A stretch of 53,102 bases of DNA from Streptomyces sp. MMBL 11-1 (GTDB taxonomy: Bacteria; Actinomycetota; Actinomycetes; Streptomycetales; Streptomycetaceae), in assembly GCF_028622875.1 (NCBI RefSeq), contig NZ_CP117711.1:1-53102 (forward strand). The letters are read 5' to 3'. How positions within the stretch are numbered: the stretch's first letter is position 1; the number at the start of each line of letters is the position of its first letter. A program made the translations under genes and the position numbers. Below are positions 5,341 to 27,701 of the stretch, piece after piece. A model generated the notes under the pieces. It did no database searches. It saw nothing but the letters and a program-made list of their open reading frames with translations, and had not been told where the DNA came from.

Positions 5341-6885
5341 TCAGCGTCCGCTGGGTGCGTTCTGCAGGTACTCCATCCGCTGCTGGGCGTTCGTCAAATG
5401 CCTCCGGTCGAGCGCGGGCAGCTGACGCAGCAGGTTGACCAACTCGGGTCCGCAGCCGCGGGCTTCGGTGGCGTCCTTGATCTCTGTCCAGCAGAAGTGG
5501 GCGGACTTCGCGCCGTTGAGCACCTCGGTGGAGTCCGGGGCCTGGTGCGCCATCCGCGTGTGTGTCGCGGCGATCCACAGCTGGGTGGCGAACATCCAGC
5601 GGCCAGCGATCCGCGCGAGGTCCGCTCTGATCTCCGCCCACTGCGTGGCCTGCGGTGAATCCGGGCCGTACTGCTGCAGGGCGTGCTGTTCCCACGCTGC
5701 GGCCATCTCGGCGGCCTCGTTGTGCTTCCCGGCCTGCGCGGTCTGCCAGATGTACGGCCGGGGGTCAGGTTGCTGTGGGGCCGGGGCCGGTTGGGGTGCC
5801 GGGGCCGGGGCTGGCTGCACCGGCGCGTATGGCTGCTGGAGGGCTCTGGGGGAGGTGACCGGGTGCGGGGCCCGGACCGGTTCCTGGGGGCGCTCCGCGC
5901 GCTGCTGGTGTACAGCTGGGGCCTGATAGGTGTGGTTCTGCGTCGGCGGCTGCTGCGGTGGAACGTACGTCTGCTGCCGGGCCGGGGCCGGGGCCGGCGC
6001 GGGGGCAGGCGGTGGCGGTTGCGGTACCTGGACCGGAGACGGCGACGGGTACGCGTAGGGAGCAGCAGGCGCGGGCTGTGGGGCTTCGAGCCCTGGTGCG
6101 ACTTCTTGCGGCTCGGGCCGGCGGAGGCGTGCGGGCATGACACTGGTGTCTCCGGCGAGCAGCCGCTGCAGGTTGCTCATCGGCGGCCGGAGAGCGGGCT
6201 GTTCCTCGTCCTCGTCGTACGCCTCGATCTCCGGGGCGGCGGGCATGACCAGGGCGCCGGGCGGTATCCCGGCGGCGGCGACGGTCAGGGCGTGCAGCCG
6301 CGGCGCGGAAGGGCGGTCCGGGTTGCGGCGCAGCTGCTCGACCAGCTGCCGGGTGTACGGGCTGGCTCCGTCGGTCCCGGGGAATCCGGGCGGGCTGATG
6401 GTCCCGTACGTGTCGGCGTTGACGGCAGGGAGTGATCCCAGCTCCCGAAGTTCGGCCCACGCGCTCTTGTCGGCGACCAGGTCGAGCAGCAGCGTTGTCC
6501 ACCCCGCAGGCCGGCCGCGCAGCTCGTTGTGCAGCCACTCCCAGGGCAGTGCGGTGTAGCGGGTGTTCGAGGTGCTGGTGCCGGTAGAGGCGAGGTGGAA
6601 TCGGTGACCCTTGCGGTCGACGGTCAGCCGCCCGGAGAGGTAGACCAGCAGCGGGCCCGGGGTCGCGGCAGCGGTGCGCAGCCGTAGCAGCAGGGTGTTC
6701 TGGTCGTTGACTCCGTCGAGGTGGACCAGGTCGGCGGGCAGCGTGCTGTTCAGCAGTACAGGCACGGGCACCACGGACAGCGCGGCAAGGTTCGCGCTCG
6801 GGTGCACCTGTACGGTGCGCCGATGGACGGCCCGGTCCCCACCGATCAGAAGTACGTGTCCCCGTTCCGCCCCGTTGATCTGCAT
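5341..6885 (-). CDS. Pseudo-caspase-like protein with proline-rich linker (514 aa)
   Basis: The first 240 residues follow the order of a caspase/CHAT-type peptidase: a strand ending LLVYLSGRL, where active enzymes have SGHG; a strand TTLLLDLVADKSAW, where they have a D-x-C-x-S block; and a later SPYTRQLVEQLRR, like the usual SxFTxxL helix. Catalytic His and Cys are absent (Arg and Val/Ala), so it would be inactive. A Pro/Ala/Gln linker (about 265-400) leads to a helical, TPR-like domain rich in Trp and Ala. The caspase relation is my reading, not a search result. ATG 6885 has no ribosome site, but TACGGT lies just upstream, so a near-leaderless mRNA is likely. Confidence 0.7.
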   Translation of the reverse strand: MQINGAERGHVLLIGGDRAVHRRTVQVHPSANLAALSVVPVPVLLNSTLPADLVHLDGVNDQNTLLLRLRTAAATPGPLLVYLSGRLTVDRKGHRFHLASTGTSTSNTRYTALPWEWLHNELRGRPAGWTTLLLDLVADKSAWAELRELGSLPAVNADTYGTISPPGFPGTDGASPYTRQLVEQLRRNPDRPSAPRLHALTVAAAGIPPGALVMPAAPEIEAYDEDEEQPALRPPMSNLQRLLAGDTSVMPARLRRPEPQEVAPGLEAPQPAPAAPYAYPSPSPVQVPQPPPPAPAPAPAPARQQTYVPPQQPPTQNHTYQAPAVHQQRAERPQEPVRAPHPVTSPRALQQPYAPVQPAPAPAPQPAPAPQQPDPRPYIWQTAQAGKHNEAAEMAAAWEQHALQQYGPDSPQATQWAEIRADLARIAGRWMFATQLWIAATHTRMAHQAPDSTEVLNGAKSAHFCWTEIKDATEARGCGPELVNLLRQLPALDRRHLTNAQQRMEYLQNAPSGR

Positions 6886-6960: not shown

Positions 6961-7482
6961 TCAGATCTCGATCTCGGGCTCGTCGTCCGACGCTGCGGGG
7001 CGCTGGGCGTACAGCTCGGTGACGGTGTTGTCGCCCCAGGTGCCGGTCTGCTCGATGGACTCCGTCAGGGGGCCGCCGACGTCCTGCAGGATCTGCGTCG
7101 AGAGCTGATCGACGACGGTGTTGAACCGGTCCTCGGCGCCGGGCTCGTTGGAGTTGCTGAGCGGGTCGTATCCGCCCTGTTCCACGGGGTTCTGCTCCCA
7201 GTACGTGCGCATCGCCTGCTGGCGTGCCGCCCAGCCTGCCCGTACGGCGGGGCTGACCGGCTCGACGGGCCGGGCGGGAATCTCACCGGAGGCTTCGGCG
7301 GCCGGGACGACCATCTCGTCCCACATGCATTCCGCGTACTCGGGGTCCTGGCCGGACTCCTCGATGTACCGCTGGCGCTGAGCGTCGCCGTATCCGGCGG
7401 CGTCCAGCTGCTGCTCGTAGGTCGGGGCGGCGGCGGTCACGGTGACCGGCGCCCACGGGTCCTCGGTCTGGTCGGCGTTCAC
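6961..7482 (-). CDS. Acidic hypothetical protein with EIEI C-terminal tail (173 aa)
   Basis: This is the last gene of the minus-strand operon. The GTG at 7482 overlaps the previous stop (GTGA). The protein is acidic and mostly helical, with no recognised domain and no membrane segment. Its end reads ASDDEPEIEI, the same short tail type as three other products of this operon and the relaxase. Central helices (AVRAGWAARQQAMRTYWEQ and FNTVVDQLSTQILQDV) could form a small bundle. A role in DNA transfer is inferred only from the shared tail and the position. Confidence 0.75.
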   Translation of the reverse strand: MNADQTEDPWAPVTVTAAAPTYEQQLDAAGYGDAQRQRYIEESGQDPEYAECMWDEMVVPAAEASGEIPARPVEPVSPAVRAGWAARQQAMRTYWEQNPVEQGGYDPLSNSNEPGAEDRFNTVVDQLSTQILQDVGGPLTESIEQTGTWGDNTVTELYAQRPAASDDEPEIEI

Positions 7483-7862
7483 AGGGAGATCTCCACTTCT
7501 TCCTCGATGTCGCGGTCCTTGTCGCTGCCGGCGTCGGCGGCCGGGAGCGGCTCGAAGTGCCGGGTGTGCGTGGCGTGGTCGAGCGCCCGTCCGGTGAAGC
7601 CGCGGTCGCCGTCGCTGCGGTGCTCCTGTTCGGCGTCGGTGATCTCCCGGGCGGTGACTCCGGCGGCGCTCACCAGGTGCCGGGCGTGCGCGGCCTCCGT
7701 CTCGTAGGCGGCGATCTGCCCGGCGGTGACCTCCTTGCCCGCGGCGGCCAGCTGCTCCAGCTCGGCCGCCGTCTTGTCGAGCTGGGAGAGAACCGGCAGT
7801 AACCCGGTGATCTCGGCCTGACGGGTGATCTCCTCGGTGCTCTGCTCTGCGGTGTCGCTCAT
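7479..7862 (-). CDS. Small helical protein with EISL C-terminal tail (127 aa)
   Basis: The ATG at 7862 follows AGGAAGG at a proper distance. The product (MSDTAEQSTEEITRQ...) is helical: helices ILPVLSQLDKTAAELEQLAA-like around residues 18-38 and IAAYETEAAHARHLVSAA around 50-68 suggest a short coiled-coil. The tail is RDIEEEVEISL. It overlaps the next gene by 4 bp. No family is recognised. The helical core with an acidic hydrophobic tail suits an adaptor or a protein carried with the relaxase (inference). Confidence 0.75.
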   Translation of the reverse strand: MSDTAEQSTEEITRQAEITGLLPVLSQLDKTAAELEQLAAAGKEVTAGQIAAYETEAAHARHLVSAAGVTAREITDAEQEHRSDGDRGFTGRALDHATHTRHFEPLPAADAGSDKDRDIEEEVEISL

Positions 7863-7893
7863 GGTCGGTGCCTTCCTCTTCGGTGGTGCGGGG

Positions 7894-8244
7894 CTACAGC
7901 TCGATCTCGAAGTCGTCGTCGGGCTGGGGCGGCGAGGGGCCGCGGGTGTGCTCCCCCCGGTCCTGCTCGGGCGGCCAGACGGCCCCCTCGGGCCCGTGCA
8001 CGGTGACGGCGTCACCGGGGTGGACCTCGGCCTGGACGTGGCCCCGGTAGACCAGGGAGCCGCTGTCGAGGAACTGGAGCGAGGGGTGGGTGCGCGGGTC
8101 GTCGGCGGGCTTCACCGCGTCGCGTTCGGTCAGCGCCTTGGGGTCGACCGTGCGGCCGTCGATGGACAGTCCCTTCGGGGAGACCTCCACGGTGTGGCCG
8201 CGCCACTGCCTGACCAGCCGTCCGACGGCGGCGGTGGGCTTCAC
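7894..8244 (-). CDS. Small beta-rich protein with FEIEL C-terminal tail (116 aa)
   Basis: The GTG at 8244 overlaps the stop of the membrane-protein gene (GTGA). The protein starts MKPTAAVGRLVRQWRGHTVEVS and carries several strands (HTVEVSPKGLSIDGRTV, SGSLVYRGHVQAEVHPGDAVTV when read in pieces), suggesting a small beta-barrel or SH3-like fold. It ends PQPDDDFEIEL, matching the tail of its operon neighbours and the relaxase. The function is unknown; no motif points to an enzyme. Confidence 0.75.
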   Translation of the reverse strand: MKPTAAVGRLVRQWRGHTVEVSPKGLSIDGRTVDPKALTERDAVKPADDPRTHPSLQFLDSGSLVYRGHVQAEVHPGDAVTVHGPEGAVWPPEQDRGEHTRGPSPPQPDDDFEIEL

Positions 8245-9002
8245 CGCTGCCGCTCTTCGCGTTCGGCTGCGGTCAGCTCGACCGGGGCCTCGTGGCCGGC
8301 GGCCTTGAGCAGTGCGGCCACGTTCAGCTCGTCGCCGGGGGCGACGGCGCGGGTCTCGCGGGCGTCGCTTGCCGCGACCAGAGCCTCGACGGTCTTGCTG
8401 ATGGCCTCGACCCGGGCCACCTCGGTGCGGTGCTCCCACACCTTCTCGGCGACGCGGGTCTGGCCCTCGATCATGGCGACGGCCACCTGGGTGCGGCCCT
8501 CGGTCTGTGCCATGACGCGCTCGTGACGCTGCTCGCGGTCCAGGCGGCGGTCGCCGCGCCACAGCGGGGCGCACACGGCATAGACGGCGGCGGTGCCCAC
8601 CAGCCACAGCAGGGCGCGCAGTGCGGAGTCCGGCGTCCAGGCGGCCACGCCCAGCAGGGCGAGAGTCCCGCCGGCGGCGAACGCGAACCGGGTGGTCTCG
8701 GCCTCGCCGTGCTGCTTGGCGGCCGACACGGTGCCCGCCGCGGCGGCGAGTGCGGCCAGCCCGCCACTGATCCACAGGGGCTGGGTCGAGCCGTCGGGCA
8801 GCTGCTCGTGCCAGCCCCATGCCAGCGCGGTCGCCGCGGTGGTGACCAGTCCGGGCGCGAGGCGACCGAAGTGCTCCCACAGGGCGCGACCGGCTGACTT
8901 CACCGGCGGCAGGGGCTCGACGTCGGGCAGGTAGGGAGCGGTGATCTGGTGTTCGCGGCTGATCAGGTAGGCGGTGGGGTCGAAGGGGGCGGGCTCGTTC
9001 AT
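8241..9002 (-). CDS. Integral membrane protein of the tail-protein operon (253 aa)
   Basis: From ATG 9002 (MNEPAPFDPTAYLIS) the protein has a soluble N-terminus of about 50 residues and four hydrophobic segments between residues 55 and 150 (for example LVTTAATALAWGW, GGLAALAAAAGTVSA, GGTLALLGVAAW, LVGTAAVYAVCAPLW). A long charged helix follows (about 155-215), probably a coiled-coil. It is the only member of the 6.9-10 kb group without the acidic-hydrophobic tail. That pattern suggests it could be the membrane partner the tailed proteins dock on (inference). It starts 5 bp after the previous gene's stop. Confidence 0.78.
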   Translation of the reverse strand: MNEPAPFDPTAYLISREHQITAPYLPDVEPLPPVKSAGRALWEHFGRLAPGLVTTAATALAWGWHEQLPDGSTQPLWISGGLAALAAAAGTVSAAKQHGEAETTRFAFAAGGTLALLGVAAWTPDSALRALLWLVGTAAVYAVCAPLWRGDRRLDREQRHERVMAQTEGRTQVAVAMIEGQTRVAEKVWEHRTEVARVEAISKTVEALVAASDARETRAVAPGDELNVAALLKAAGHEAPVELTAAEREERQR

Positions 9003-9006
9003 GGGG

Positions 9007-10095
9007 TCAGATCTCCATCTCGTGCTGGTGGGCGGGAGCGTCGGGAGCGTGGGTGGGAGCCGGTGGGGCGGGCTCCTTGTCGCTGGCCAGCTGCGGTTCG
9101 CGTTCGGCGTGCTGGATGCGCTGGTGGTCGGCGTGGACCGGTTCCAGTGCCTGTCCCGCGTGCTCGACCAGGGCGCTGGGTGCGAGGGCCGGGTGGCGGG
9201 CGTAGTTGCGCAGGTCGTGACCGGCTGCGTCGAGCCGGTCAAGGGCGGCGGTGTGCAGGACCTGCTCGGCGGTGTAGGCGGCGGTGCCGCCCATCCCGGC
9301 CTCCTGCAGCTCGGCGAGGACCTGGTCGCTGGGCTGCGGCCCGGGGTGGCGCTGGGCCTCCCACGCGACGGTCAGCGGGTCGATGGGGGCGTGCCGCTCG
9401 TCGAGCGTGCGCATCGCCTGGTAGACGGCGGCCAGCTGCGGGTGGGAGAAGTCCCGGTCCTCCAGCCAGCCGGTGACCTCGCGCAGCTGGCGGGGCTCGT
9501 AGAGCAGGGAGGCGACGGTCTCGCCCTCGGCCTGGATGTCGACCCGGGCCCGCTCGGTGCGGGGCACCGGGGTGACCTCCTGCTCGGGCGTGGTGTCGAG
9601 CAGGTTGCGCACGGTCTCCGGTGCGGTCTTCCAGGCGGCGTCCAGCTGGGCGAGGCGCTGACCGGTCTTGTCGGCCTGTTCCAGTGCCTTGAGCGCCTGG
9701 TCGACCTCGGCCTGCCGGGCGGTGTCCCGCAGCGTCTCGCCGGCGTGCTCGACGGCCCGGTGGATCGCGGCCTCCAGCACCATCCCGCCGTACAGCGGGG
9801 CGGTCTTGGGGTTCGGGCAGACGCTGGCGTTGGCGAGGACGGACAGGCGGGAGGGGGTGAGGGTCTGCCGGATGCCCGGCTCCTCGATCTTCGCCACGGC
9901 CGCGGTGACGGCGGCCGGGACATCGTTCGGGGCGACCTTGGAGAAGTCGATCGAGTGCAGCGTCTGCCACAGGGCGGCGTAGTCCGGGCGGGAGAAGGTC
10001 CCCGGCGGTATCCAGCGCATCGAGGGCAGCGCCTCGGGGCGGTGCAGCATCGCCCCGAGCAGCGCTTCCTCGGCCTTGAGCGTCAGCTTCTTCAC
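9007..10095 (-). CDS. Protein with two DnaB-N-like helical modules and HEMEI tail (362 aa)
   Basis: Residues 1-45 (KLTLKAEEALLGAMLHRP, then TFSRPDYAALWQTL) look like the N-terminal domain of replicative DnaB helicases. A second similar unit follows around residues 175-260 (ERARVDIQAEGETVASLLY, then FSHPQLAAVYQAMRTLDE). There is no Walker motif, so it is not a helicase. It may bind the host helicase or primase or load them on transferred single-stranded DNA (inference from the domain). A Pro/Ala-rich linker precedes the tail HQHEMEI. The GTG at 10095 overlaps the upstream stop (GTGA). Confidence 0.78.
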   Translation of the reverse strand: MKKLTLKAEEALLGAMLHRPEALPSMRWIPPGTFSRPDYAALWQTLHSIDFSKVAPNDVPAAVTAAVAKIEEPGIRQTLTPSRLSVLANASVCPNPKTAPLYGGMVLEAAIHRAVEHAGETLRDTARQAEVDQALKALEQADKTGQRLAQLDAAWKTAPETVRNLLDTTPEQEVTPVPRTERARVDIQAEGETVASLLYEPRQLREVTGWLEDRDFSHPQLAAVYQAMRTLDERHAPIDPLTVAWEAQRHPGPQPSDQVLAELQEAGMGGTAAYTAEQVLHTAALDRLDAAGHDLRNYARHPALAPSALVEHAGQALEPVHADHQRIQHAEREPQLASDKEPAPPAPTHAPDAPAHQHEMEI

Positions 10096-10646
10096 CGGGC
10101 CACACCGCCCGGCTCGTACGGGTGCAGGGGCGCGACCGCCGGGAGGTACAGCGGGTGGCGCGGGTGCCCGGCCTTGGTGGTGCCCAGGGCCCACAGCCGG
10201 GCGCCGTGGGCGGTGAGGGCCTTCTCGACGGTGGCGGCGCGCTGGAGCCTGCCCCACGCTCCCCAGCCGACGGTGAGGTCGTGGGCGGCCTCGGCGAGCA
10301 ACCGCAGCAGTTCGTCGTTGTGGGCGCCGACCGTGTCCAGCAGCCCGGTGGTCAGGACGCTGGGGTCGGTGGACCGGACGGCGAACAGGTTGGCCAGCAC
10401 CAGCCCGCCGCAGCGGTCGCGCTGGGCGAAGCCGACCAGTCGCCGGACCGTGGGGTCGTCCTGGTCGGCGGTGGCCATCGACGGGTTGAGCAGGACGTAG
10501 ACGCGGTGCGGGCCGGGTGCCCAGGTGCGGGTCAGGGCGTAGCGGTGGACCAGGTCGGGGCTGAACACGGCGGTGCCGGCGTCGCCCTGCTGATGGGTCA
10601 GGCCCTGGTCTGCGGCCCATGCCTGGATCTGCTCGGGCAGCGTCAC
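10092..10646 (-). CDS. DUF1643-family protein (184 aa)
   Basis: The core reads HRVYVLLNPSMATADQDDPT and continues with VRRLVGFAQ and LVLANLFAVRSTDP, the signature pattern of DUF1643 proteins, for which no activity is established. The length is normal. The GTG at 10646 overlaps the stop of the DUF4326 gene. Its neighbours (DUF4326, cytosine methyltransferase, ASCH) form a set often seen in phages and plasmids. A role in nucleotide or DNA modification is possible but only inferred from that company. Confidence 0.85.
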   Translation of the reverse strand: MTLPEQIQAWAADQGLTHQQGDAGTAVFSPDLVHRYALTRTWAPGPHRVYVLLNPSMATADQDDPTVRRLVGFAQRDRCGGLVLANLFAVRSTDPSVLTTGLLDTVGAHNDELLRLLAEAAHDLTVGWGAWGRLQRAATVEKALTAHGARLWALGTTKAGHPRHPLYLPAVAPLHPYEPGGVAR

Positions 10647-11062
10647 GACGTCACCTCCGTCGCGTCCGCCAGCTCGGCGAGCACACGCGCGTGGCACGGT
10701 TCGCCCTCGGGGCACCAGCAGCCCAGCAGCTGCCCCTTGAGCCGGGGAAGCTCGCGGGCGACCAGGTCGCGGTGCTGGTCGAGCCACACGCGGTACTTGG
10801 CGACGACGTCCTCGGCGGTGCCGTGCTTGCCCACCTTGAAGGGGTTGGCGAGCAGGTGACCGGCGAGGTGCCATCCGCCCTGGTACATCGGGCGGCCGAC
10901 GTAGACGACACCCTCGATCTCGGGGTCGTTGCGGCGGCCCTTGAGGCACACCACGGTGGTGGGCCCGGTGGCGGCGGCCTGCTCCTGGTGCTCCTCCTCG
11001 AAGAGGTCGAGGCCCAGCTGCAGCCCGCCGTTCATCTCCGGGTCGAAGGACTTGGGGGTCAT
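10643..11062 (-). CDS. DUF4326-family protein (139 aa)
   Basis: After a 40-residue charged leader the protein shows VYVGRPMYQGG, LANPFKVGKHG and the C-terminal GCWCPEGEPCHARVL. These are the conserved blocks of DUF4326, including the paired cysteines and a His that may bind metal. No reaction is known for the family. The ATG at 11062 overlaps the methyltransferase stop by 4 bp (ATGA), so the two are probably co-translated. Confidence 0.88.
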   Translation of the reverse strand: MTPKSFDPEMNGGLQLGLDLFEEEHQEQAAATGPTTVVCLKGRRNDPEIEGVVYVGRPMYQGGWHLAGHLLANPFKVGKHGTAEDVVAKYRVWLDQHRDLVARELPRLKGQLLGCWCPEGEPCHARVLAELADATEVTS

Positions 11063-14680: not shown

Positions 14681-14863
14681 GTGCCGCAGCAGGACGAACC
14701 CCAGCAGACGCCTGAGGAGTCGGAGGAGCGCGTCAACTTCAGCGCCCGCGTTCGAGCGTCCGTCCGTAAGAGGGCCAAGCTCTACGCGGCCCAGAACGAC
14801 GTGAGCCTGCAGGACCTCGTGGACGCCGCGCTGGACGACTACCTCACCCGACACGACGCATGA
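14681..14863 (+). CDS. Ribbon-helix-helix (Arc/CopG-type) regulator (60 aa)
   Basis: The C-terminal 40 residues (RVNFSARVRASVRKRAKLY, then a helix VSLQDLVDAALDDYLTRH) match the strand-helix-helix pattern of CopG/Arc proteins. The GTG at 14681 follows AGGAGC at a good distance; a GTG at 14642 would add 13 residues. It stands alone between two divergent operons and ends in a hairpin terminator. This makes it a natural candidate to bind the repeats in the upstream intergenic region and to balance transfer genes against the 14-7 kb operon. Confidence 0.8.
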   Translation: MPQQDEPQQTPEESEERVNFSARVRASVRKRAKLYAAQNDVSLQDLVDAALDDYLTRHDA

Positions 14864-14924: not shown

Positions 14925-16919
14925 ATGCGCCACGACCAGGGTACGGGCACCGATCCGTACTGGTCAGCAGCCGGTTTCGGCCAGCTGGACTGGCAGGCGG
15001 AGGCTGAACGCCTCTTGAAGGACGCGCCTACCTGGGTCCTGCTGGCCATTGCCGGCGCCGTACTCATCATGGTGCTGCTCGCGGGCTTCCTGGTCCTGTC
15101 CCGGACCTCGAAGCGCAAGGCGGAGAGCGACAAGAACCACGAAGCGGCCGTCGCGGTCGCCCGGGAGAAGGAGCAGCCCCTTCCTCCGAAGCCCTTGCAC
15201 ATGGACCCCACGCCGCTGCTCGGCGGTATCGCGGTGTCCCTGAACGGCTTGTGGGGATTCGCCCAGGACACGGTCCATCTGTCGTTCTTCTTCGCGATCG
15301 GCTTCGTGACGATGTTCGACGTCCTGGAAATGCGGCTGTTCTCGATCATGTACGAGATGGCGAACGCCGACCCGCGCAGGCGGTGGACGCGCCAGCTCAA
15401 GGTGATGAGGGGCACGGCGTGGGCATTCGTCTTCGCGTCGGCCGCGGTGAACGTCGCCCACGCCCCGAACGTGTACGCCGCCCCCTTCCTCGCGATCATG
15501 CCGATCGGTGCGGGCTGGGTCATCTACATGCCGCTCAAGAACGCGCTCGACGGCGGGGAAGAGGAAGAGGACACCAAGCGGCCGGAGGGCACGAAGCCCG
15601 GTCCGTTCCGGCTCGCCGGCCTGCTGTGGCGGCGTGTGTGGGCCTGGGGCTTCCGTGTGGCGGGCATGGACGTCAACGACCGTGCGGACGAGATGGTCCG
15701 CCGGGCCCGCGCCCGGGACGCTGCGGATGCCTCGTACGAACTGCGCAAGGTGCTCAAGGAGAAGGAGCAGCTGGAGGCGGTCGTCGGCACTGCTGTGGTC
15801 CCGCGTCGTCGGGGGAAGGTGTCGGAGGAGCAGAAGCGCCTCGCCGCGCTGAACCGGACGCTGGAGAAGAAGGTCCGGCCCAAGGCGCAGACGGCGCTGG
15901 AGATGGCGGACACGCAGGACCCTGAGCAGGGCCTGCAGCTCATGCAGCGCATGGCGTGGCTGACCCGGGCCGACGATGTGGCCCTGCTCGACTACGGGCC
16001 CGACAGCCCGGCCATGACGGTGCTCGAAGAGCTGAACATCGCGGCGAACGCCGAGTTCGTGAAGTCCAACAAGCGTGCGATCGAGGCGGGCAAGACGGCG
16101 GAGGCTGCGGAGGAGACCCGGCGTAAGGCCGAACAGGCAGTCAAGGAAGCGGCGGACAGGCTCGCGGCCGTCGAGAAGGAGCTGGAGCGGACCCGCAAGG
16201 AGGCGGAGGAGTCCCAGCAGCAGGTCGTGGCCGAACGGGAGAAGGAAGAGAAGCGGCTCAAGGCGCTCCAGGATGAACGGGCCCTGCTGGAGAGCAGCGA
16301 CGCCACGGCCGGCCAGCTCTACCAGCGAACCGTCAAGGAACTGGAGGACACCCGAGAGCAGCTCACCAAGCTCATGGAGGAGCGCGGGAAGCTCACCGAC
16401 TCGACCAGCGAGGTCCAGAAGGAAGCCGCTCAGGCCCGGGAGGAAGTCCTTCGCCTCGAAGGTGAGCGGAAGGCTCTGGAAGAGCGCCTGGGCCTCATGG
16501 CGGACGAACGTGACCGGCTGACCACGGTGGCGTCCGACGCGGAGAAGGAAGCGCGGGAAGCGCGCGAGCTGTCGCTGCGTCTGGAGGAGCGCCTGGCCTC
16601 GATCGAGCGTCAGCAGGCCGCCGGAGTCGCGGCCCGTGCCCAGCAGCCCGGCCGGGTCGACGCCCGGATCGGCGCGGGGGGCGGCGACACCCGCCAGCGC
16701 ATCCGCGACCTGCTCGCCGAGATGAGCCCGGAGGACCGGCAGCAGTCCCAGCGGAAGATCGCTGCGCAGCTGATGGACCAGGTGGGCCTCGGCCTCGATG
16801 CGGTCCGCAACCACCTGCGGGCCATCGACCAGGAAGACGCAGAGGCTGCGGGCGTCCCCAACCCCCGTGCGGAGGAAGACCCGGAGGACCCGGACGTCGT
16901 CGAGGACGACGAGAGGTGA
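14925..16919 (+). CDS. DUF2637 (SpdB-like) membrane protein with long coiled-coil (664 aa)
   Basis: An N-terminal membrane helix (WVLLAIAGAVLIMVLLAGFL, about residues 37-56) is followed by a DUF2637-like block of three or four helices (about 90-200, for example LLGGIAVSLNGLWGF, FFFAIGFVTMFDVLEM, GTAWAFVFASAAVNVAHA). Residues 250-590 form a long Glu/Lys/Arg-rich coiled-coil. The C-terminus reads like a small helical domain (TRQRIRDLLAEMSPEDR...VRNHLRAIDQ) and an acidic tail. DUF2637 proteins of Streptomyces plasmids act in intramycelial spread. The coiled-coil makes this version unusually large. ATG 14925 has GGGAG upstream. Confidence 0.82.
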   Translation: MRHDQGTGTDPYWSAAGFGQLDWQAEAERLLKDAPTWVLLAIAGAVLIMVLLAGFLVLSRTSKRKAESDKNHEAAVAVAREKEQPLPPKPLHMDPTPLLGGIAVSLNGLWGFAQDTVHLSFFFAIGFVTMFDVLEMRLFSIMYEMANADPRRRWTRQLKVMRGTAWAFVFASAAVNVAHAPNVYAAPFLAIMPIGAGWVIYMPLKNALDGGEEEEDTKRPEGTKPGPFRLAGLLWRRVWAWGFRVAGMDVNDRADEMVRRARARDAADASYELRKVLKEKEQLEAVVGTAVVPRRRGKVSEEQKRLAALNRTLEKKVRPKAQTALEMADTQDPEQGLQLMQRMAWLTRADDVALLDYGPDSPAMTVLEELNIAANAEFVKSNKRAIEAGKTAEAAEETRRKAEQAVKEAADRLAAVEKELERTRKEAEESQQQVVAEREKEEKRLKALQDERALLESSDATAGQLYQRTVKELEDTREQLTKLMEERGKLTDSTSEVQKEAAQAREEVLRLEGERKALEERLGLMADERDRLTTVASDAEKEAREARELSLRLEERLASIERQQAAGVAARAQQPGRVDARIGAGGGDTRQRIRDLLAEMSPEDRQQSQRKIAAQLMDQVGLGLDAVRNHLRAIDQEDAEAAGVPNPRAEEDPEDPDVVEDDER

Positions 16920-17213
16920 TCCCGGAAATCCGCGGACTCTATCCACAGGCCCGGCTCTGGAGCATTGGCGGACCGGTGACCACGGCCGGCGGGATGGAAG
17001 GGCCGAACACGAAGGTGTCCGGTCTGGCGGGCAATCTGCCCAGATCATCCCGCCCGGCGGGAAGCTGCGCAACCGCGCGCAGTAGGTCCGTAACGATCGG
17101 CAATAACCATGCCGCGCTTGTCAGTGCAGAGACGTATACAGACAGGAGTGGCCCCGGTGCTATCTGAGCTTGGCGGCTACAGCACCGGGGCCCCGACGAA
17201 GGAGGAGACCTTC
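16920..17213 (+). other. Leader between DUF2637 gene and coupling-protein gene
   Basis: This 294-bp stretch contains one weak frame (GTG 16916 to 17167, starting MIPEIRGLYPQARLW) with mixed codon bias, which I do not annotate as a gene. Its last part holds a strong hairpin (17150-17192) just before the ribosome site of the coupling-protein gene. It could be a regulatory leader or could hold part of oriT; nothing decisive is visible. Confidence 0.4.
17150..17192 (+). promoter_or_regulatory. 12-bp stem hairpin ahead of the coupling-protein ribosome site
   Basis: GGCCCCGGTGCT (17150-17161) pairs perfectly with AGCACCGGGGCC (17181-17192) around a 19-base loop. The ribosome site (AAGGAGGAG, ending about 17207) begins 7 bases after the stem. 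It may attenuate transcription or hide and expose the start of the coupling-protein gene. Confidence 0.55.
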
Positions 17214-19505
17214 GTGAACGACAACAGTAAGGCCAGCATCCACACCGACTCGACGTCCTCGGACGACTCCGCGGAGGCGACCGAATCCCAGCAGCAGGCC
17301 CCGCAGAGCCCGCTGTTCAGCGAGACACCCATCTGGCGCGGCACGGGCGTGAGGGTCACGGCCCTCGCCGTTCCCACCACGTTCCTCGCGGCCGGGGAGG
17401 TCGCCCCCACCAACCCCTCCGGCGACGACGCGGGCGACATCGTCGGCACGATCCTCGGCGGCCTGGCCGACGGCGTCGGCAGCGTGTTCTCCGCACAGCC
17501 GCTCCTGGCGACCGGGCTGACGGTCGGTCTGGCCGGCGCGGGCTACATGTACGTGAAGACGAACGTGGACTTCGGCCGCGAGACCGACGGCTTCGCCGAC
17601 AGGAAGCGGCTCAAGAAGCAGATGACCCGCGGCCCGCTGGTCAAGAAGCGCAAGATCCTTCGGCCCAGCCTCAAGGACGTTCCCGCCCGGAAGGTGCCGA
17701 CCAACGCGGTCGGCTTCTACATCGGACGCGACCGCAAGACCGGCCTGCACCTGTACGCGGCGATCGAGGAGTCGTCCCTGATGCTCGCGCCGATGGGTGC
17801 GGGCAAGACGGCCAAGCTGGGCAACTGGCTGCTGGACGCGGTGGGGGCGGTCCTGGCGACCAGCACGAAGTACGACATCGTCGAGCTGACCGAAGCCATC
17901 CGGGCCCGGGTGGGCAACATCCTGATCTGGAACCCGGAGGGCCTGGCCGACCGGCAGTCGAACATTGCCTGGGACCCGGTGATCGGCTGCTCCGACCCGA
18001 AGCTCGGCATCGAGCGCTCCAAGCGGCGGGCCAAGTCCCTGCTGGAGGGCTCCGACGCCACCAAGGGCATGGAGAACCGGAACTTCTGGACCTCCAGCTC
18101 CTACCGGGTGCTCAAGGCGTTCTTGTGGGCTGCCGACGTCGAAGGGCTGACCCTGATGGACGTGGCCCGGTGGTCCAAGCAGCCGCACCGCTACGAAGCG
18201 ATCAAGATTTTCGAGAAGCACTCGGACATCGCACCCCCCGGCTGGCAGGACGACCTGGAGCAGCAGCAGAAGGTCGACGGCAAGACGACGACCCTGGAGA
18301 ACGTGTTCGGCACGCTCTCCCAGACCTTCATGTTCCTCGACTCCCCGGACATCCAGCAGGTGATCCTGTCCGCCCACCGGCCCGGCGCGCAGTTCGACAC
18401 GGACGCGTACCTTCGCTCGCGGGACACGCTCTACATGCTCGGCAACGACAGCGACGTCGGCGGCATGGGCCCGCTGTTCACCTGCCTGACCAGCGAGGTG
18501 TACGCGGGGGCGCGGACGATGGCGTCCCGCTCGCGCGGCGGCCGGCTGGACCCGCCGATGACGTTCGTGCTGGATGAGGCGGCGCTGATCTGCAGCGTGC
18601 CGCTCCAGCGGTGGACCGCTGACAGCCGCGGCATCGGCATCACGATCCACGCCGTGTTCCAGTCCCCGGCGCAGATCTACGAGCGGTACGGGAAGTACGC
18701 CTACCAGACCATCTGGGAGAACTGCATCAAGCTCATCCTCGGCGGCCTGAGCAACGTCGAGCACCTGGAGGACCTCTCCAAGCTCACCGGCACGAAGCGG
18801 GTCAAGCAGGAGAGTCAGTCGGAGTCGAACTCGGGGGGCGTGAACGGCACCTCGAACCGCTCTTCCAGCTACACATGGGTGGAGAAGCCGACCATGACGA
18901 TCTCCGACATCATGTATCTCGACCCGGGACAGATCCTGATGTTCCGCAAGTACATCGGGGGTCCGGTCATCGCCACCTACACCCCGGTGTGGGACCGCAA
19001 GGACGTCAAGAACGTGGTCCGGGACAACAAGAGGGCGGCCAAGGCCGAACTCAAGGCCCGCAAGCGCAAGCTCGCGACGGTGCCGGCGGCCCCGGAAGCC
19101 AGCCCGTGGGTGGACGCTCCGGTCCCGGACGTGTGGGGCCCGCAGCCCGAGGAACCCTGGGCGCCGCCCGTCCCGGCGGCGGAGGCCAGCCCGTGGACGT
19201 CGGACCCGGCGGCCAGCGGCTGGAGCACCGGCGGGTTCCCCGGGCCGCGTGACCACCTGCGGGTCGTGCCCGGCGAGGTCATCGAGCCGACCGTGGCGCA
19301 GCCGCTGCCGGAGATGCCCTCGTTCGAGCCGACCGCGCACCTGGTGCCGGAGCAGCCGACGCCGGTCGAGGAGCCCACGGCGAAGGCGGAGCCCGAGCAG
19401 CTGCGTGACACCGGCACGGCCGGACCCAACAAGCCGACCGGCTCGGCCGGCCCGACCCGGTCGACCCGGCGTCGGCGTGACGCGGACGACCTGGGGGCCT
19501 TCTGA
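17214..19505 (+). CDS. VirD4/TraG-type conjugative coupling ATPase (763 aa)
   Basis: Walker A is APMGAGKTAKLGNW (about residue 192) and Walker B is MTFVLDEAALI (about 448). Between them are the typical coupling-protein stretches around NILIWNPEGLA and NRNFWTSSSYRVLKAFL. One or two hydrophobic segments (for example ATGLTVGLAGAGYMYVK, about residue 100-116) anchor it in the membrane. Such ATPases bring the relaxase-DNA complex to the mating pore and may pump DNA. The last 150 residues are Pro/Ala/Glu-rich and probably disordered. GTG 17214 is chosen because of the strong AAGGAGGAG; an upstream ATG at 17109 would translate through a hairpin. Confidence 0.88.
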   Translation: MNDNSKASIHTDSTSSDDSAEATESQQQAPQSPLFSETPIWRGTGVRVTALAVPTTFLAAGEVAPTNPSGDDAGDIVGTILGGLADGVGSVFSAQPLLATGLTVGLAGAGYMYVKTNVDFGRETDGFADRKRLKKQMTRGPLVKKRKILRPSLKDVPARKVPTNAVGFYIGRDRKTGLHLYAAIEESSLMLAPMGAGKTAKLGNWLLDAVGAVLATSTKYDIVELTEAIRARVGNILIWNPEGLADRQSNIAWDPVIGCSDPKLGIERSKRRAKSLLEGSDATKGMENRNFWTSSSYRVLKAFLWAADVEGLTLMDVARWSKQPHRYEAIKIFEKHSDIAPPGWQDDLEQQQKVDGKTTTLENVFGTLSQTFMFLDSPDIQQVILSAHRPGAQFDTDAYLRSRDTLYMLGNDSDVGGMGPLFTCLTSEVYAGARTMASRSRGGRLDPPMTFVLDEAALICSVPLQRWTADSRGIGITIHAVFQSPAQIYERYGKYAYQTIWENCIKLILGGLSNVEHLEDLSKLTGTKRVKQESQSESNSGGVNGTSNRSSSYTWVEKPTMTISDIMYLDPGQILMFRKYIGGPVIATYTPVWDRKDVKNVVRDNKRAAKAELKARKRKLATVPAAPEASPWVDAPVPDVWGPQPEEPWAPPVPAAEASPWTSDPAASGWSTGGFPGPRDHLRVVPGEVIEPTVAQPLPEMPSFEPTAHLVPEQPTPVEEPTAKAEPEQLRDTGTAGPNKPTGSAGPTRSTRRRRDADDLGAF

Positions 19506-20176
19506 TGAAGCTGGAGCCGGGGGACATGCTCCTCGCGCTGGCCCGGGACCTCTCCGAGACCCGAACCACTCTCAGCGCCGGGCTGGAGGACCTCGCCGGA
19601 CGCCTGGAGGCGGTGGAGGGTGCGGAGTACGGCGATGCCATCGCCGGACTGCGGAAGGTGCTCGGCGACGTCACCGAAGCAGTCCAGAAGCTGCAGGCCA
19701 AGGCGGAAGAGGAAGAGCCGGAGGGGCCGGGTACCGCCCCGGACTGGACGAACCTCGACAAGGAGCAGTGCCGGGAACTGTGGGACTGGCTCAACACCTG
19801 GTGCAGCAAGGTGCTGCTGCCCGTCTACGCCCCGGACGCCTGGAGGCCGTGCTGGTACCGCCACACGGAGCTGAAATTCCAGCTGACGTGGCTGTGCGCC
19901 TACTGGCACTGGGCGTATGAGAAGACGGCACCGCCGACCCGGGCCGCCGAGTGGCACGTCAGGTGGTGGCCGGCCGTCCTGACCTTCATGAAGAAGGAGC
20001 TGGCGGAATGCGGCTACGTTGACCCGGAGAAGCTGCGTGACCCGCTGCACGTCATTCCGGCGGACGACTCGCTCGACGATTTCGCCGACAGCGGCCTGCT
20101 GGAGTGGATGGACCGGGACATCGAGCGGCGCCCGGACCCGGAGAAGAAGCGCAGCAAGAAGGACCCTGCCGACTGA
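19505..20176 (+). CDS. DUF4913-family protein (223 aa)
   Basis: The start shares a base with the coupling-protein stop (TGATG). Residues 1-70 form a helical coiled-coil (LARDLSETRTTLSAGLEDL). Residues 80-165 carry the tryptophan-rich DUF4913 block (WDWLNTWCSKVLLPVYAP, CWYRHTELKFQLTWL, WHWAYE). The family is common beside transfer genes in actinobacterial plasmids, with no known activity. Coupling to the VirD4-like gene suggests that it assists the coupling protein. The gene ends just before a long perfect palindrome shared with the converging gene. Confidence 0.85.
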   Translation: MKLEPGDMLLALARDLSETRTTLSAGLEDLAGRLEAVEGAEYGDAIAGLRKVLGDVTEAVQKLQAKAEEEEPEGPGTAPDWTNLDKEQCRELWDWLNTWCSKVLLPVYAPDAWRPCWYRHTELKFQLTWLCAYWHWAYEKTAPPTRAAEWHVRWWPAVLTFMKKELAECGYVDPEKLRDPLHVIPADDSLDDFADSGLLEWMDRDIERRPDPEKKRSKKDPAD

Positions 20177-22643: not shown

Positions 22644-25600
22644 CTACATCTCGATGTCGATGTCGATGTCCGGAGCAGCGGGCGCGGGCGGCTCCGGTGC
22701 CGGCGCGGGGGCCGGGGCAGGTTCCGGCTCGGGTGCGGCCGGGCTGCTACCCGCGGGCTCGACGTCGAGGTCCTGGCCGTGGTCGTACCCGGCCAGTTCC
22801 CGGCCCAGCCGCTCGTACTCGGCCTCGAAGTCCATGCCGGAGTCGCGGCGCTCGCGGTCGACCTCTTCGGTCTTGGGCTGCGCCTCGCGCTCCCGCTGGG
22901 CTTCCTGCTCCCGCTCCTGGGCGCGCTGTTCGAGGATCTGCTGCGCCTGGCGGGCCTGCTCCATCGCGGCCATCAGCTCCTGCTCGGCCGACGGCTGCGG
23001 GCTCGGCGCGGCGGCCGGGGCCGCCTCGGTCTCCGGCTCGGCGGTCTCCGGCTCGACGACGGGGTTACGGCGCTCCAGCTCGATCCGGGCGTAGTCGGCC
23101 TCTTCGCGTACCTGCTGCGTCTCGGCGAACCACTTCTCCCGGGTCTCGTGGACCTCCTGGTACTGGCGCGCGCGGTCGCCCATCGTCTCCGCGATGTCCC
23201 GGCTGGTCTCGGCCCGGTCGAGGGTGTCGCGGACCAGCTCGCTGGGCTCGATGTTCGCCTGGAGCGTGGGCACCTGCTGCAGCGCCATCGACTGGGCGAG
23301 GGCCTGCTGGTGCTCGTTGTAGCCGGTCGCCTTCGAGACCTCGTCCAGGGCCTTGTTGATGCGCTCCTCGTGCTCGGCGACCTCCTTGTCCGCCATCTCC
23401 TGAGCACGCAGCTCCATCTGCACGGCCTGGTCCTCGTAGTCACGCGACGCCTTGAACGACTTCTGCATGTCGTCGGCGACGTACGGCGGCGCCCACTCCT
23501 CCTCGCGCTCGGCACGCTCGACGGACTGGCGCAGGTTCTCCTCGCTCGCGCGGGAGATGTCGGCCAGCTCGTCCGGCACACCAAGGGCGCGGCGGGCCCG
23601 CTCCCAGTCCGCGCGCGCCTCGACGGCGCCGTCCGGCGGGGCCTGGCCGATGGCGTCGGCTTCCTTGTCGAAGGAGTGCGCCTCGCGGTACCGCTCGACA
23701 CGGCCGGCGCGCAGCTCCCAGTCGGCGCGCTCGGTCGGGTCCTCGGGGACCGGGCCCAACCGGTCGAGCGCCCATTGCGGCTGCTCCTCGGCGACACGCT
23801 GGCCCAGCCGCTCGGTGCGCTGGTCCATCAGGTCGGCCCACTCGCCCATGAACCGGCCCAGGTCGCCGTCGAGGTCCGGCGTACGGGCGCGGTAGGAGTC
23901 CATGGCCTCCATCTGTGCCTCGCGCTCGGCGGCCTGGCGCTGCTTGACCTCGTTGTCCTGACCCGCGTGCAGGACCTCCGTCTCGGTCTGGAAGGCGAAG
24001 GACTGGCGCAGCAGCAGCTCTGTGTTGAGCATGTCGTTGGCCTGTGGGTCCAACTCGGGTGCGGGACTGTCGACCAGCTGCTGCAGCTGGTCCTGGTCGA
24101 GGGGCTCGGCGGTCGCGGCCTCGATGGCGGCCGTCTCCTGCTGCTGGCGGGTCTCCTCGTCGGAGGCGGCGCCCAGGACCTCGGTGCCCATCTGGGTGGC
24201 GAGGGTCTGCTGCAGCAGTTCGTCCTGGTGCGGGTGGACCCGGGCGGCCTCGTCCGCAGCGTCGAGCAGCTGCTTGAGCTCCTCCGGGGTGGCGGTCGCC
24301 TGCCCGGTCTCGATGGCGGTGTCGACCCTCTGCTCCTGGGCGGCGAGGGCTTCGCGCTGCTCGGCCTTCTCCGCTCGGATCTGGTCCCGCTCGACCAGGT
24401 TGTAGGCGTTCTTGAGGCGGTGGTGCATGGCCTTGCTAGCGTCGTCGGCCGTGTCCAGCTCGCGCGAGCGGGCGGTGCGCACCAGCAGGTCCTCGGCGTC
24501 GAACCCGCGCTCCTCGACCGTGCGGGCCAGCCGCATCAGGGAGCCGTACGCTTCGCCGCTGCTGACGCGGGCGTAGTCCTCCGGGCCCAGCGCGTCGAGC
24601 AGTGCCTTGCCGTACCGGGTCTCGGCGTGCTGGTCCTTGACCCCGGCCCATGCCGGCTGGATGGCGGCGAGGTGCTCGCGGCGCTCCAGCTCGCCCGCGA
24701 TGGCCTGGGTGGCGGTCTGCTGCGAGCCGGACCGTTGCAAGGTCTGGTCCAGCGTCGAGAGGTAGTGCGGGACGTCCTCGTCCTTGATCCCGTCGCCGTC
24801 CCGGTGGGTGATGACGTAGGCCCAGTTCCCGTCCTGGCCTCGGGTGAGGCTGACGTACAGGGCCTCGCGGGTGGTCTGCTCGTCGACCAGCGAGTGGCAG
24901 GGCCCGACGGTGCGGCCCTGCGCGCCGTGCACGGTGCTGGCGTATCCCAGCTCGACGTGCGTCTGGACGTAGGCCGCGGGGAGGTGCATCCGCGAGCCGT
25001 CTTCCAGCTGGACCATCAGGGAGCCGTTGTCGCTGATCCCGGTGACCGTGGCGGTCAGCCGGTTGGTGGCGAACTGGCCGCTCTCGCCCTCGATCTTCCG
25101 GTCGTTGCGGCGCATCTGGATGACGTCGCCGCGGCCGGCCTTGGTCTCGACGCCGTACTGCTGCCCGGTGCGCAGGGCGACGCCGTCCTCCTCGACCAGG
25201 CCGGCGCGGACCAGGTCGGCGCGGGCGCGGGCGGAGAGTTCGGCGGCCGTCTCGTTGTCCGGCGCGACCAGCAGCGGGTTACGCCCGGCCAGCTGGTCGG
25301 TGACCCATCCCTGGTAGGCGCGCTCCTTCATCGCCTCGGCTTCACCGCCGCGCAGACGGCCGTGAAGCTCGTACTGGGCCAGCGCCTCGCTGTCGCCCTC
25401 GCGCAGCTGCAGCGATGCCTTGGCCTCCCACTCGCGGACCTTCGACTCGCCGGTGACGGGGTCGATGTCGCGGAAGCGGCGGACCTCTTCGAGCGTGTGG
25501 ACCCCGGGCATCTCCTCGGCGAGCTGGCCGAACATCCCGCCCGCGCCGACGGCCGTGAGCTGGTGGTGGTCGCCGGAGCCGATCATCTTGGCGCCGTACG

Positions 25601-27701
25601 ACTCGACCAGGGCACGGACGCGGTCCAGGTCCGGGGTGTTGGTCATGCCCGCCTCGTCGACGATGACCAGGGTGCCGGGGGCGATCCGGTACTTGTCCGC
25701 GTCGGGTACGTGCTTCCCGGCGGCCATGTCGTCGTGCTTCTTGAGCAGCATGGAGATGTTGGCGACGTTGGTCAGGCCCTCGTCGGCGAGGACCTGGGCG
25801 GCGCGCTCACCACTGGCCAGCCCGATGACCTGGCGGCCTTCGTGGGCCTCCCACACCTCGGTCAGAGCGGCGAGGGTGTAGGACTTGCCCGCGCCGGCCG
25901 GGCCGATCAGCAGGTCGAGCTTGCGGCCGGACGTCGCCGCGCTGCGGACGAAATCGGCCTGCTTGCCCTTGAGCCCGCGCCGGGCGATGACTTCCTCGAC
26001 CAGCTCGCTGGGCACCGTGGGCCCGCCGCGCTCGCCCGCGAAGGTGCGCATCCGCTCCTCGGTCGCGATGTGGCGTTCGGTCGCGAACCGGTTCACGTTG
26101 TTGTCGGCCGGCTCGTAGACGAAGGACCCGTCCTCGCGCTGCAGCTCGACGGGGATCTCGACCAGGTGCGGGGCGGTCGCGCAGACCACGCCGTTGTCGT
26201 TGGTCGGGTCCAGCGCCTCATCCGCGAGCCGGTTGAGCAGGTCGCGGACCTCGTGGGCCTCCATGCCGCCCAGCGTGTCCGGCAGCTGGCGGTTCAGCTC
26301 GACGATCAGATCCGGGCGGCGCCACGTCGCCTTCTGCTCCTGAACTGCGGCGATGGCGCGCTGCTGGATGCGCTCGGGGTCGAACTCCTTGTAGGGGCGG
26401 TGCAGGTCGTGCAGCGCGGACTCGTGCTCGACCTGGTCGGGGACGTTGGCCAGCGAGTCGCGGAACCGCTCCTGGCTGAACGCCTCCCAACGGTCGAGCA
26501 GCTGGTCGCGGGTGACGGCGTCGTGCTTCTTCGCCTGACGCTGCTGCAGCGTGACGTCCTCGGACATCCGGGCCAGCACGTAGGGGGAGGGGGCGGTGCC
26601 GTACCGCTCCTCGTACGCCTTCGCGACCTCTGCGACCTCGGCCTTGATGGCGACGCGACGGGAGGAGAACCCGTCGCGCAGGTCCTGGTCGATGCCGACG
26701 ATCTCGCGGGCCTTACCGTCCGGGCGGGTCGCGAACCGCACGCCTTCCGTGCGCTCCAGCTCCTGCTCGGCGATCCGCTCGGCGAGGTGGCCCACGGCCT
26801 GCTTGTGGACCCACAGGCCGTGCCCGTCGACCGATCCCCAGGTCACGCGCTCCTCGCCGGTCACCGGGTCGATCTCAACAGCCTTGATCTTGTTCAGGAC
26901 CGTGGCGTGAACGTGGAGCTGCGGGTCGTCGTCGCGGCTCGTGTGCTGCGCCCAGGCGGAGACGATGAAGCCCTCACCCTTGACGTAGCGGCCGGTCGAG
27001 CGGCCCTCGACCTTCTTCCCGTGGTGGCCCAGCCGGGTGTAGCCGGCCTCCTCCTGCATGTGCTCCAGACCGGCCTTCACGCCGACCTTCCAGGCGTCCC
27101 AAACGCGGTCCGCCTTCGCGGCGTACTGCTCGGCGCCTTCCAGGTCACCGGCCTTGCGGCATTCTGCGGCCTTCACCTGCAGGCTCGCGTGGTAGACGCT
27201 CCAGCTCTTCGGCGCGCTGAACGTCAGGTCGTAGTACAGCGTCGCTGACGGTGAGTGCTTCCGGGTGTCCAGCTCGATCGCCTTGACCCGCTCAGGGGTC
27301 AGGTCGACCCCCGGCGTCTTGGCCTGGGCGTCGCTCAGGGCGGCCTCGAACCGCTTCTGGAAGCTCTTCTCGTAGTTCTTCGGGGCGTTCCCCAGCCGGG
27401 CGTCCTTGCGGATCTGCTTCTCGGCCTTGGCGTACGCCGGCGTGCCCTCCTCGTGGGGGATCGCCGCGAGACGCTCGTACATCTCGTCGCGCTTACGGGG
27501 GTCGATCCAGTCCTTGTAGAGGTCCGTGAAGACCTCGTTGTCGACCGTTCCCTCCAGGCCCAGCTCGGCCGCGCCGTCACCGAGCCAGTAGCCGGGCGGT
27601 TCCCCCTGCAGGTCCACGCTCCGGGCGTAGTAGTGCTCAGCACCAGCCGCTACCTCACGGGTGAGGTAGGCGGGGTCTGAACCTGCGGAGATTGAAAGCA
27701 T
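22644..27701 (-). CDS. MOBF (TrwC/TraA-type) relaxase-helicase (1685 aa)
   Basis: The N-terminus has the nicking tyrosines (EHYYARS, about residue 23) and the three-His metal motif HTSRDDDPQLHVH (about 253-265) of MOBF relaxases. A RecD-like helicase follows with Walker A GPAGAGKS (about 600), Walker B VIVDEAGM (about 680), GSGDHHQLTAVG, and STVHGAQGRT near 920. The last 550 residues are Glu/Gln/Arg-rich coiled-coil ending in the acidic tail DIDIDIEM. The protein should nick one strand at oriT, stay bound to the 5' end and unwind the plasmid. At 1685 residues it is longer than TrwC (966). No ribosome site precedes ATG 27701; TACTCT lies just upstream. Confidence 0.92.
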   Translation of the reverse strand: MLSISAGSDPAYLTREVAAGAEHYYARSVDLQGEPPGYWLGDGAAELGLEGTVDNEVFTDLYKDWIDPRKRDEMYERLAAIPHEEGTPAYAKAEKQIRKDARLGNAPKNYEKSFQKRFEAALSDAQAKTPGVDLTPERVKAIELDTRKHSPSATLYYDLTFSAPKSWSVYHASLQVKAAECRKAGDLEGAEQYAAKADRVWDAWKVGVKAGLEHMQEEAGYTRLGHHGKKVEGRSTGRYVKGEGFIVSAWAQHTSRDDDPQLHVHATVLNKIKAVEIDPVTGEERVTWGSVDGHGLWVHKQAVGHLAERIAEQELERTEGVRFATRPDGKAREIVGIDQDLRDGFSSRRVAIKAEVAEVAKAYEERYGTAPSPYVLARMSEDVTLQQRQAKKHDAVTRDQLLDRWEAFSQERFRDSLANVPDQVEHESALHDLHRPYKEFDPERIQQRAIAAVQEQKATWRRPDLIVELNRQLPDTLGGMEAHEVRDLLNRLADEALDPTNDNGVVCATAPHLVEIPVELQREDGSFVYEPADNNVNRFATERHIATEERMRTFAGERGGPTVPSELVEEVIARRGLKGKQADFVRSAATSGRKLDLLIGPAGAGKSYTLAALTEVWEAHEGRQVIGLASGERAAQVLADEGLTNVANISMLLKKHDDMAAGKHVPDADKYRIAPGTLVIVDEAGMTNTPDLDRVRALVESYGAKMIGSGDHHQLTAVGAGGMFGQLAEEMPGVHTLEEVRRFRDIDPVTGESKVREWEAKASLQLREGDSEALAQYELHGRLRGGEAEAMKERAYQGWVTDQLAGRNPLLVAPDNETAAELSARARADLVRAGLVEEDGVALRTGQQYGVETKAGRGDVIQMRRNDRKIEGESGQFATNRLTATVTGISDNGSLMVQLEDGSRMHLPAAYVQTHVELGYASTVHGAQGRTVGPCHSLVDEQTTREALYVSLTRGQDGNWAYVITHRDGDGIKDEDVPHYLSTLDQTLQRSGSQQTATQAIAGELERREHLAAIQPAWAGVKDQHAETRYGKALLDALGPEDYARVSSGEAYGSLMRLARTVEERGFDAEDLLVRTARSRELDTADDASKAMHHRLKNAYNLVERDQIRAEKAEQREALAAQEQRVDTAIETGQATATPEELKQLLDAADEAARVHPHQDELLQQTLATQMGTEVLGAASDEETRQQQETAAIEAATAEPLDQDQLQQLVDSPAPELDPQANDMLNTELLLRQSFAFQTETEVLHAGQDNEVKQRQAAEREAQMEAMDSYRARTPDLDGDLGRFMGEWADLMDQRTERLGQRVAEEQPQWALDRLGPVPEDPTERADWELRAGRVERYREAHSFDKEADAIGQAPPDGAVEARADWERARRALGVPDELADISRASEENLRQSVERAEREEEWAPPYVADDMQKSFKASRDYEDQAVQMELRAQEMADKEVAEHEERINKALDEVSKATGYNEHQQALAQSMALQQVPTLQANIEPSELVRDTLDRAETSRDIAETMGDRARQYQEVHETREKWFAETQQVREEADYARIELERRNPVVEPETAEPETEAAPAAAPSPQPSAEQELMAAMEQARQAQQILEQRAQEREQEAQREREAQPKTEEVDRERRDSGMDFEAEYERLGRELAGYDHGQDLDVEPAGSSPAAPEPEPAPAPAPAPEPPAPAAPDIDIDIEM

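Follow-up and report, generated by a model that had tools for sequence, protein, structure and literature searches.

The tailed genes of the window

The DNA analysed here (the window) is an entire contig of 53,102 bases, NZ_CP117711.1, within the 8.5-Mb genome of Streptomyces sp. MMBL 11-1, and it was treated as a plasmid because its near relatives are Streptomyces plasmids. It carries a MobF relaxase gene and an operon of small genes, here called cargo genes, and the relaxase and four of the operon products end in the same kind of acidic-hydrophobic tail. This tail is a real, conserved and portable feature tied to conjugation genes. The genes concerned are the following (aa, amino acids).

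6961..7482, minus strand: cargo 3, 173 aa, tail DDEPEIEI
7479..7862, minus strand: cargo 2, 127 aa, tail EEEVEISL; a tailed family in the sampled plasmids
7894..8244, minus strand: cargo 1, 116 aa, small all-beta domain and disordered linker (AlphaFold2), tail DDDFEIEL
8241..9002, minus strand: probable membrane protein, 253 aa, without tail (alignment)
9007..10095, minus strand: stand-alone DnaB N-terminal-domain (DnaB-N) protein, 362 aa, tail HQHEMEI (Pfam DnaB 6.8e-19)
22644..27701, minus strand: MobF/TrwC relaxase-helicase, 1685 aa, Pro-rich linker, tail DIDIDIEM (Pfam TrwC 2.8e-40, AAA_30 1.4e-47)

All five tails were found, on the minus strand, where a preliminary description of this DNA had placed them (that of the 7479 product was given there as IEEEVEISL). 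All-against-all BLASTP sorted the five proteins into five families, in agreement with the claim that they are mutually unrelated, and the DnaB-N-like module noticed in the 9007 product was recovered with Pfam. For the neighbour at 8241-9002 the absence of a tail stood; of the four helices read in it, a crude hydropathy scan gave one clear segment. The tail is also absent from the 5341 gene and from four genes at 10092-13250. The relaxase has, according to Pfam, both the TrwC relaxase domain and the superfamily-1 helicase domain that mark the MobF (TrwC/TraI) type.

Comparison of the cargo proteins with Pfam, PHROG, NCBIfam and PADLOC gave nothing above cut-off except DnaB-N, sub-threshold matches being disregarded, and the DnaB-N protein matched none of the sequences of solved structures. 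A WD-40 repeat match of the 7894 family, over about 32 residues in the sequence search of solved structures, was judged to be repeat-driven and was not used. Searched in the genomes of 61 relatives, the 7894 protein had a match in its own genome only; a search of viral contigs, made with the alignment of the membrane protein, gave 32 pattern matches, of which none was confirmed. The AlphaFold2 model of the 7894 protein has a mean predicted local distance difference test (pLDDT) value of 72.4 and strands between residues 10 and 82. Residues 95-104 and 106-116 fall below pLDDT 50, which suggests that the tail of this protein is exposed and flexible.

Positions 5341-6807, directly downstream of the cargo genes, gave a match to the EACC1-associated caspase-like domain that lies below cut-off (2.7e-7). 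The operon upstream, at 10092-13250, comprises a DUF1643 protein, a cytosine methyltransferase and genes with relatives named ASCH and DUF4326.

The strict pattern used for the tail, [DE][ILVM][DEST][ILMVF] at the C-terminus, was written after the tails had been seen, and the relatives therefore serve as the independent test. With genes called by a simple codon-usage caller, the pattern ends 5 of the 58 genes of the window and 0 of 618 host chromosome genes, sampled in 39 stretches of 20 kb. Given the C-terminal frequencies of the chromosome, the window would be expected to have 0.045 tailed genes (binomial P ~1e-9; Fisher P 4e-6). A search of the whole 8.5 Mb for DNA encoding [DE]-hydrophobic-[DE]-hydrophobic followed by TGA or TAG (TAA was left out, and the EISL end of the 7479 product is not covered) gave 14 sites, 4 of them in the plasmid; among the 10 chromosomal sites, 4 end a called gene. 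The occurrence of tails throughout the host genome, which the preliminary description had named as a possible objection, was thus not observed. The DNAs that encode the tails differ in codons, stop codons and flanks, hence the tails are not a DNA repeat. Coincidence, or the spread of one repeat or gene end through recombination, comes to mind for a short motif picked after the fact, but it is extremely improbable in view of the binomial value, of these DNA differences and of the conservation of the tail after divergent linkers (see below). We also give very little credence to a control of stability, with the tail acting as a degron or degron mask for a protease or adaptor: hydrophobic C-terminal residues can be protease signals, but nothing links protease control to a relaxase and one operon only, and none of the chromosomal genes sampled is tailed.

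Conservation and distribution of the tail

The last residues are conserved in homologues of the relaxase, the 7894 protein and the DnaB-N protein, contrary to a doubt raised in advance. For the relaxase, counts refer to the best 120 of 322 database matches. The strict pattern is present in 45 of the 47 closest homologues (at least 59% identity), in 17 of the next 35 and in 1 of the last 38; with a loosened pattern the counts for the last two groups are 27 of 35 and 2 of 38. Some relaxases of the middle group have no acid at the end but hydrophobic residues spaced as in the tail (GPSMGM, GYGISM, IQIQL). There is a separate Streptomyces group of relaxases that end QGPTISY or QGPIISY (L093-L095), with extra terminal residues in L004 (ISYGPQ), L161 (ISYGNGPQ) and L172 (MSYGSQG). 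Outside Streptomyces, the relaxase C-terminus is DGPTIEM in a Pseudonocardia plasmid and EREMHL in an Amycolatopsis one; the ends do not fit in relaxases of pA387 and of plasmids from a Prauserella, a Natronoglycomyces and a second Pseudonocardia. An incomplete Rhodococcus relaxase was left out of account. In the 7894 family the tail is found in 36 of 37 listed homologues, the single miss being incomplete, and in the DnaB-N family in 55 of 67. The 12 DnaB-N misses are five with one terminal residue changed or added, one near-miss (MEADL), two incomplete sequences and four distant homologues (27-29% identity) without such an end.

Entropy in a reduced alphabet was calculated for 46 relaxases, 35 7894-type and 57 DnaB-N sequences, near-duplicates, incomplete sequences and the four distant ones having been dropped. 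In the three families it is 0-0.51 bits at the last four positions, intermediate at positions -5 to -8 and 0.9-2.5 bits at positions -9 to -30. Chemically, the four-residue tip is near-invariant while the preceding linkers drift.

To follow the distribution of the tail, 991 genes were called in 32 plasmids or contigs, of which one is the window and 31 are its relatives; some of these are partial and several near-identical to one another. A slightly broader pattern, allowing [DESTNAGQ] at the second-last position, ends 90 of these genes: 87 of the 101 relaxase and cargo genes (including 18 of 18 members of the 7479 family) and 3 of the 890 others. These three resemble shortened cargo genes, one being a 52-aa DnaB-N-ending remnant at the DnaB-N position and two being short 6961-like genes that share start and end with the 6961 type. 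Tails are missing from the flanking families, with 0/30 for the membrane protein, 0/19 for the methyltransferase, 0/17 for the ASCH type and 1/38 for the DUF1643/DUF4326 cluster, that one being the 52-aa remnant. In other plasmids the same slot holds further unrelated tailed proteins of 212/167, 243, 218, 93 and 125 aa, and G447, a contig of another genus, has the tail on relaxase, DnaB-N, 7479- and 6961-type proteins. Transfer of the tail onto a DUF1643 protein in CP109180 was considered and rejected, as that 272-aa protein clusters with the 7894 family.

The 14 untailed family members are nine relaxases, three proteins of the 7894 family and two of the 6961 type. The relaxases are four of the QGP..SY group and those of Pseudonocardia, pA387, A2-16 (YEVER), L008 and G224, the last two with the tail present in another frame. 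Of the 7894 family, one ends QEKTL, one EETDL and the third is again from G224, with its tail in another frame; the 6961-type members are one ending EIEIR and a longer protein without tail in CP107817. That two genes of G224 (L067), relaxase and 7894 type, each have their tail in a neighbouring frame suggests frameshifts or mistakes in the sequence of this contig.

Some relatives lack the tail or have a variant of it. In our own gene calls the 6961-type domain occurs with other C-termini in two members of the QGP..SY group, L160 (38% identity) and L093 (35% identity); two further sequences aligned poorly and were left uncounted. L093 is a plasmid with a QGP..SY relaxase, and L160 is a 7-kb contig without relaxase from a genome in which another contig encodes a relaxase ending ISYGNGPQ. 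At 3317-4114 of L093 the 6961-type domain runs into a further domain in an untailed gene of our calling, and the record annotates a shorter gene only. In G474, 7894-type proteins with the ends EMEISR and QMELTR accompany relaxases that end IQIQL and YYGGGLQ. Relaxase and cargo ends drift together there, but the joint drift is not strict because five DnaB-N variants end one residue off. A degenerate chromosomal copy in G639:C1 at about 5.08-5.12 Mb (L155, L156) has only the last ~48 relaxase codons left and retains the coupling protein, the 19505-type gene and the membrane protein; no tailed gene and no 7894-type cargo were found in it.

Acidic tails often shield the nucleic-acid or peptide site of their own protein, and two of the tailed proteins, relaxase and DnaB-N, act on DNA or close to it. 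Auto-inhibition of this kind, arising separately in each protein, is nevertheless improbable, as it does not account for a four-residue free end that recurs on at least five unrelated families and that 887 of the 890 other plasmid genes lack.

The transfer region and candidate readers of the tail

The relaxase, the coupling protein and the cargo genes are all on one 53-kb contig. The transfer region contains the following genes.

14925..16919, plus strand: DUF2637-like membrane protein (Pfam DUF2637 8.3e-4, below cut-off)
17109..19505, plus strand: VirD4/TraD-type coupling protein, start called at 17157 (Pfam TraG-D_C 7.8e-26, T4SS-DNA_transf 5.4e-16)
19505..20176, plus strand: Trp-rich 223-aa protein, starting at the coupling-protein stop codon (family alignment)

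The DUF2637 name is also used for the 14925-16919 type in annotated relatives. No Pfam family was found for the 19505-20176 product, and an Rfam scan of the window at gathering scores gave no match. A short protein is encoded at 14681-14863, one relative of which is annotated as ribbon-helix-helix. The coupling protein has an acidic-aromatic C-terminus of its own, unlike the tail (DADDLGAF; DDDDMGAF, GDDDETGF and DDDDLGGL in relatives), which resembles the TraD end that binds TraM, as given in the accessible text of PMC8406263.

Comparison between plasmids separates transfer and cargo genes into two sets. In CP108570 the DnaB-N protein is 96%, the membrane protein 93%, the relaxase 68% and the coupling protein 57% identical to that of the window; in G046 the relaxase is 92%, the coupling protein 88% and the DnaB-N protein 64% identical, and tails are present in both. 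The relaxase with the coupling protein and the cargo with the membrane protein behave as separate, reassorting modules. Because tails persist while modules reassort, the tail is not kept merely through common descent of one block, and its reader is likely to be generic.

We infer one shared reader because the relaxase and unrelated proteins have the same tail. Candidate readers are the coupling protein and the 19505 type, either of which was detected in 21 of the 22 plasmids tallied (9/9, 6/6, 4/4 and 2/3). The membrane protein 8241 appears to be a weaker candidate than the coupling complex, since the relaxase of a Pseudonocardia plasmid, for which BLASTP gave no homologue of 8241, nevertheless ends TIEM, an end outside the strict pattern.

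A possible role in conjugation

The tail has the look of an address label used in common, which may direct its bearers into the next cell together with the DNA. The four terminal residues, alternately acidic and hydrophobic and ending in a free carboxylate, would be held out to one reader by an exposed disordered linker, and the relaxase would in this way reach the coupling-protein complex for export with the DNA. The reader would most likely be the coupling protein (17109-19505) or the product of 19505-20176 that regularly adjoins it, the coupling complex being preferred because the relaxase must meet it and the cargo share the relaxase tip. The DnaB-N, 7894, 7479 and 6961 products, and replaceable others elsewhere, would be recruited likewise and sent into the recipient, where they may aid replication and establishment of the incoming strand. 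That the tail docks relaxase and cargo on the coupling-protein complex, so that the cargo travels with the DNA, is the reading we prefer, with chances that we regard as roughly balanced. A broader proposal is offered more tentatively: Streptomyces MobF plasmids may possess a dedicated portable code, [DE]-hydrophobic-[DE]-hydrophobic-COOH, by which the relaxase and an exchangeable, effector-like cassette are loaded into the transfer machine, and proteins would join the exported set simply by gaining the tail.

Several observations weigh against docking on the coupling complex. The best-known MobF relaxases, F TraI and R388 TrwC, have internal signals, according to the portion of PMC10025392 that was available. 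The coupling protein occurs in groups with and without the acidic tail, so that co-occurrence does not single it out as the reader, and the 19505 product has a net charge of -15, which is unexpected for a reader of acidic tails. No VirB4-like gene was recognised on the plasmid in a Pfam scan of 22 of the 58 window proteins. The host chromosome has adjoining SCO6880-like and VirB4-like genes (G000:C1 7516507-7519913, one match each at ~30% identity), which are a possible channel for the plasmid. Moreover, a free hydrophobic last residue is not absolutely required, because A2-16 (L010, CP063809) has a basic residue in both tails (YEVER in the relaxase, QEKTL in the cargo) and because the end is off by one residue in five DnaB-N homologues (EMEIDQ three times, EMEIDR and EMEMEP).

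The tail could also be a docking tag within donor or plasmid-bearing cells, where relaxase and cargo would meet on one hub, such as a relaxosome or replication platform or a membrane scaffold, with no export of cargo. Relaxase and DnaB-N protein alike point to DNA processing, and the cargo genes adjoin the 8241-type membrane protein in the loci sampled. Acidic C-terminal tails dock replication proteins in SSB and in T7 gp2.5 and gp4, with a tip that ends in Pro-Phe or Phe, and share with the present tail a disordered linker, an acidic run, a hydrophobic last residue and a docking role. The SSB tip has an acidic run ending Pro-Phe; here the second-last residue of the 138 homologues, whatever their pattern, is D, E, G, A or N, and Pro in none. 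The repertoire of tailed proteins differs between plasmids although the relaxase keeps its tail, a situation more fitting for cargo than for parts of one complex, and for a hub on 8241 the Pseudonocardia plasmid is again an obstacle. Docking confined to the donor is the main alternative, less likely in our judgement than export.

Recruitment to the coupling complex has parallels in known systems. In Agrobacterium VirB/VirD4, the Vir effectors have a C-terminal Arg signal and the relaxase MobA is recruited via its C-terminal 48 residues (PMC10025392). One short C-terminal element common to unrelated proteins and a relaxase is likewise seen here, but it is acidic/hydrophobic instead of basic, occupies the very last residues and belongs to a Gram-positive plasmid. 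There is no Arg/Lys cluster, a basic residue being found within the last four in 1 of 138 relaxase, 7894-type and DnaB-N homologues (DnaB-N EMEIDR). In Legionella Dot/Icm, DotM binds acidic Glu-rich C-terminal peptides at the coupling complex (PMC5802825, in the part accessible). Acidic residues stand at the C-terminus here too; however, the Legionella signal (E-block) is a Glu-rich stretch that lies along basic patches, while the present tails have Asp as well as Glu, alternate strictly at the last four positions, end hydrophobic and are shared with the relaxase. In the F-type/pED208 conjutome several plasmid-encoded proteins are exported with the DNA and need the coupling protein, and the available sections of PMC8406263 and PMC11288057 describe varied internal or C-terminal signals and no single shared tail. 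The tailed proteins, as candidate substrates of this kind, are likewise encoded with a relaxase and a coupling protein. In the literature searched, which included few subscription papers and for which the accessible text of PMC5802825, PMC8406263, PMC10025392, PMC12857230, PMC7434980 and PMC11288057 was covered, no such tail in Streptomyces or other actinobacteria was found.

As far as the accessible portions of PMC10025392 and PMC11288057 go, there is no general sequence rule for the choice of protein substrates by conjugative type IV secretion systems. A recent review considers MobF relaxases to be rare among Gram-positive bacteria and presents transfer in Streptomyces as translocation of double-stranded DNA by TraB (PMC12857230). 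If the proposal is true, a little-studied system would gain a simple, testable rule, with four residues as a code for the relaxase and for small proteins that differ from plasmid to plasmid. The proteins delivered on mating could then be read directly from sequence, giving a candidate list, and the tail would be usable as a tag to send proteins between Streptomyces cells.

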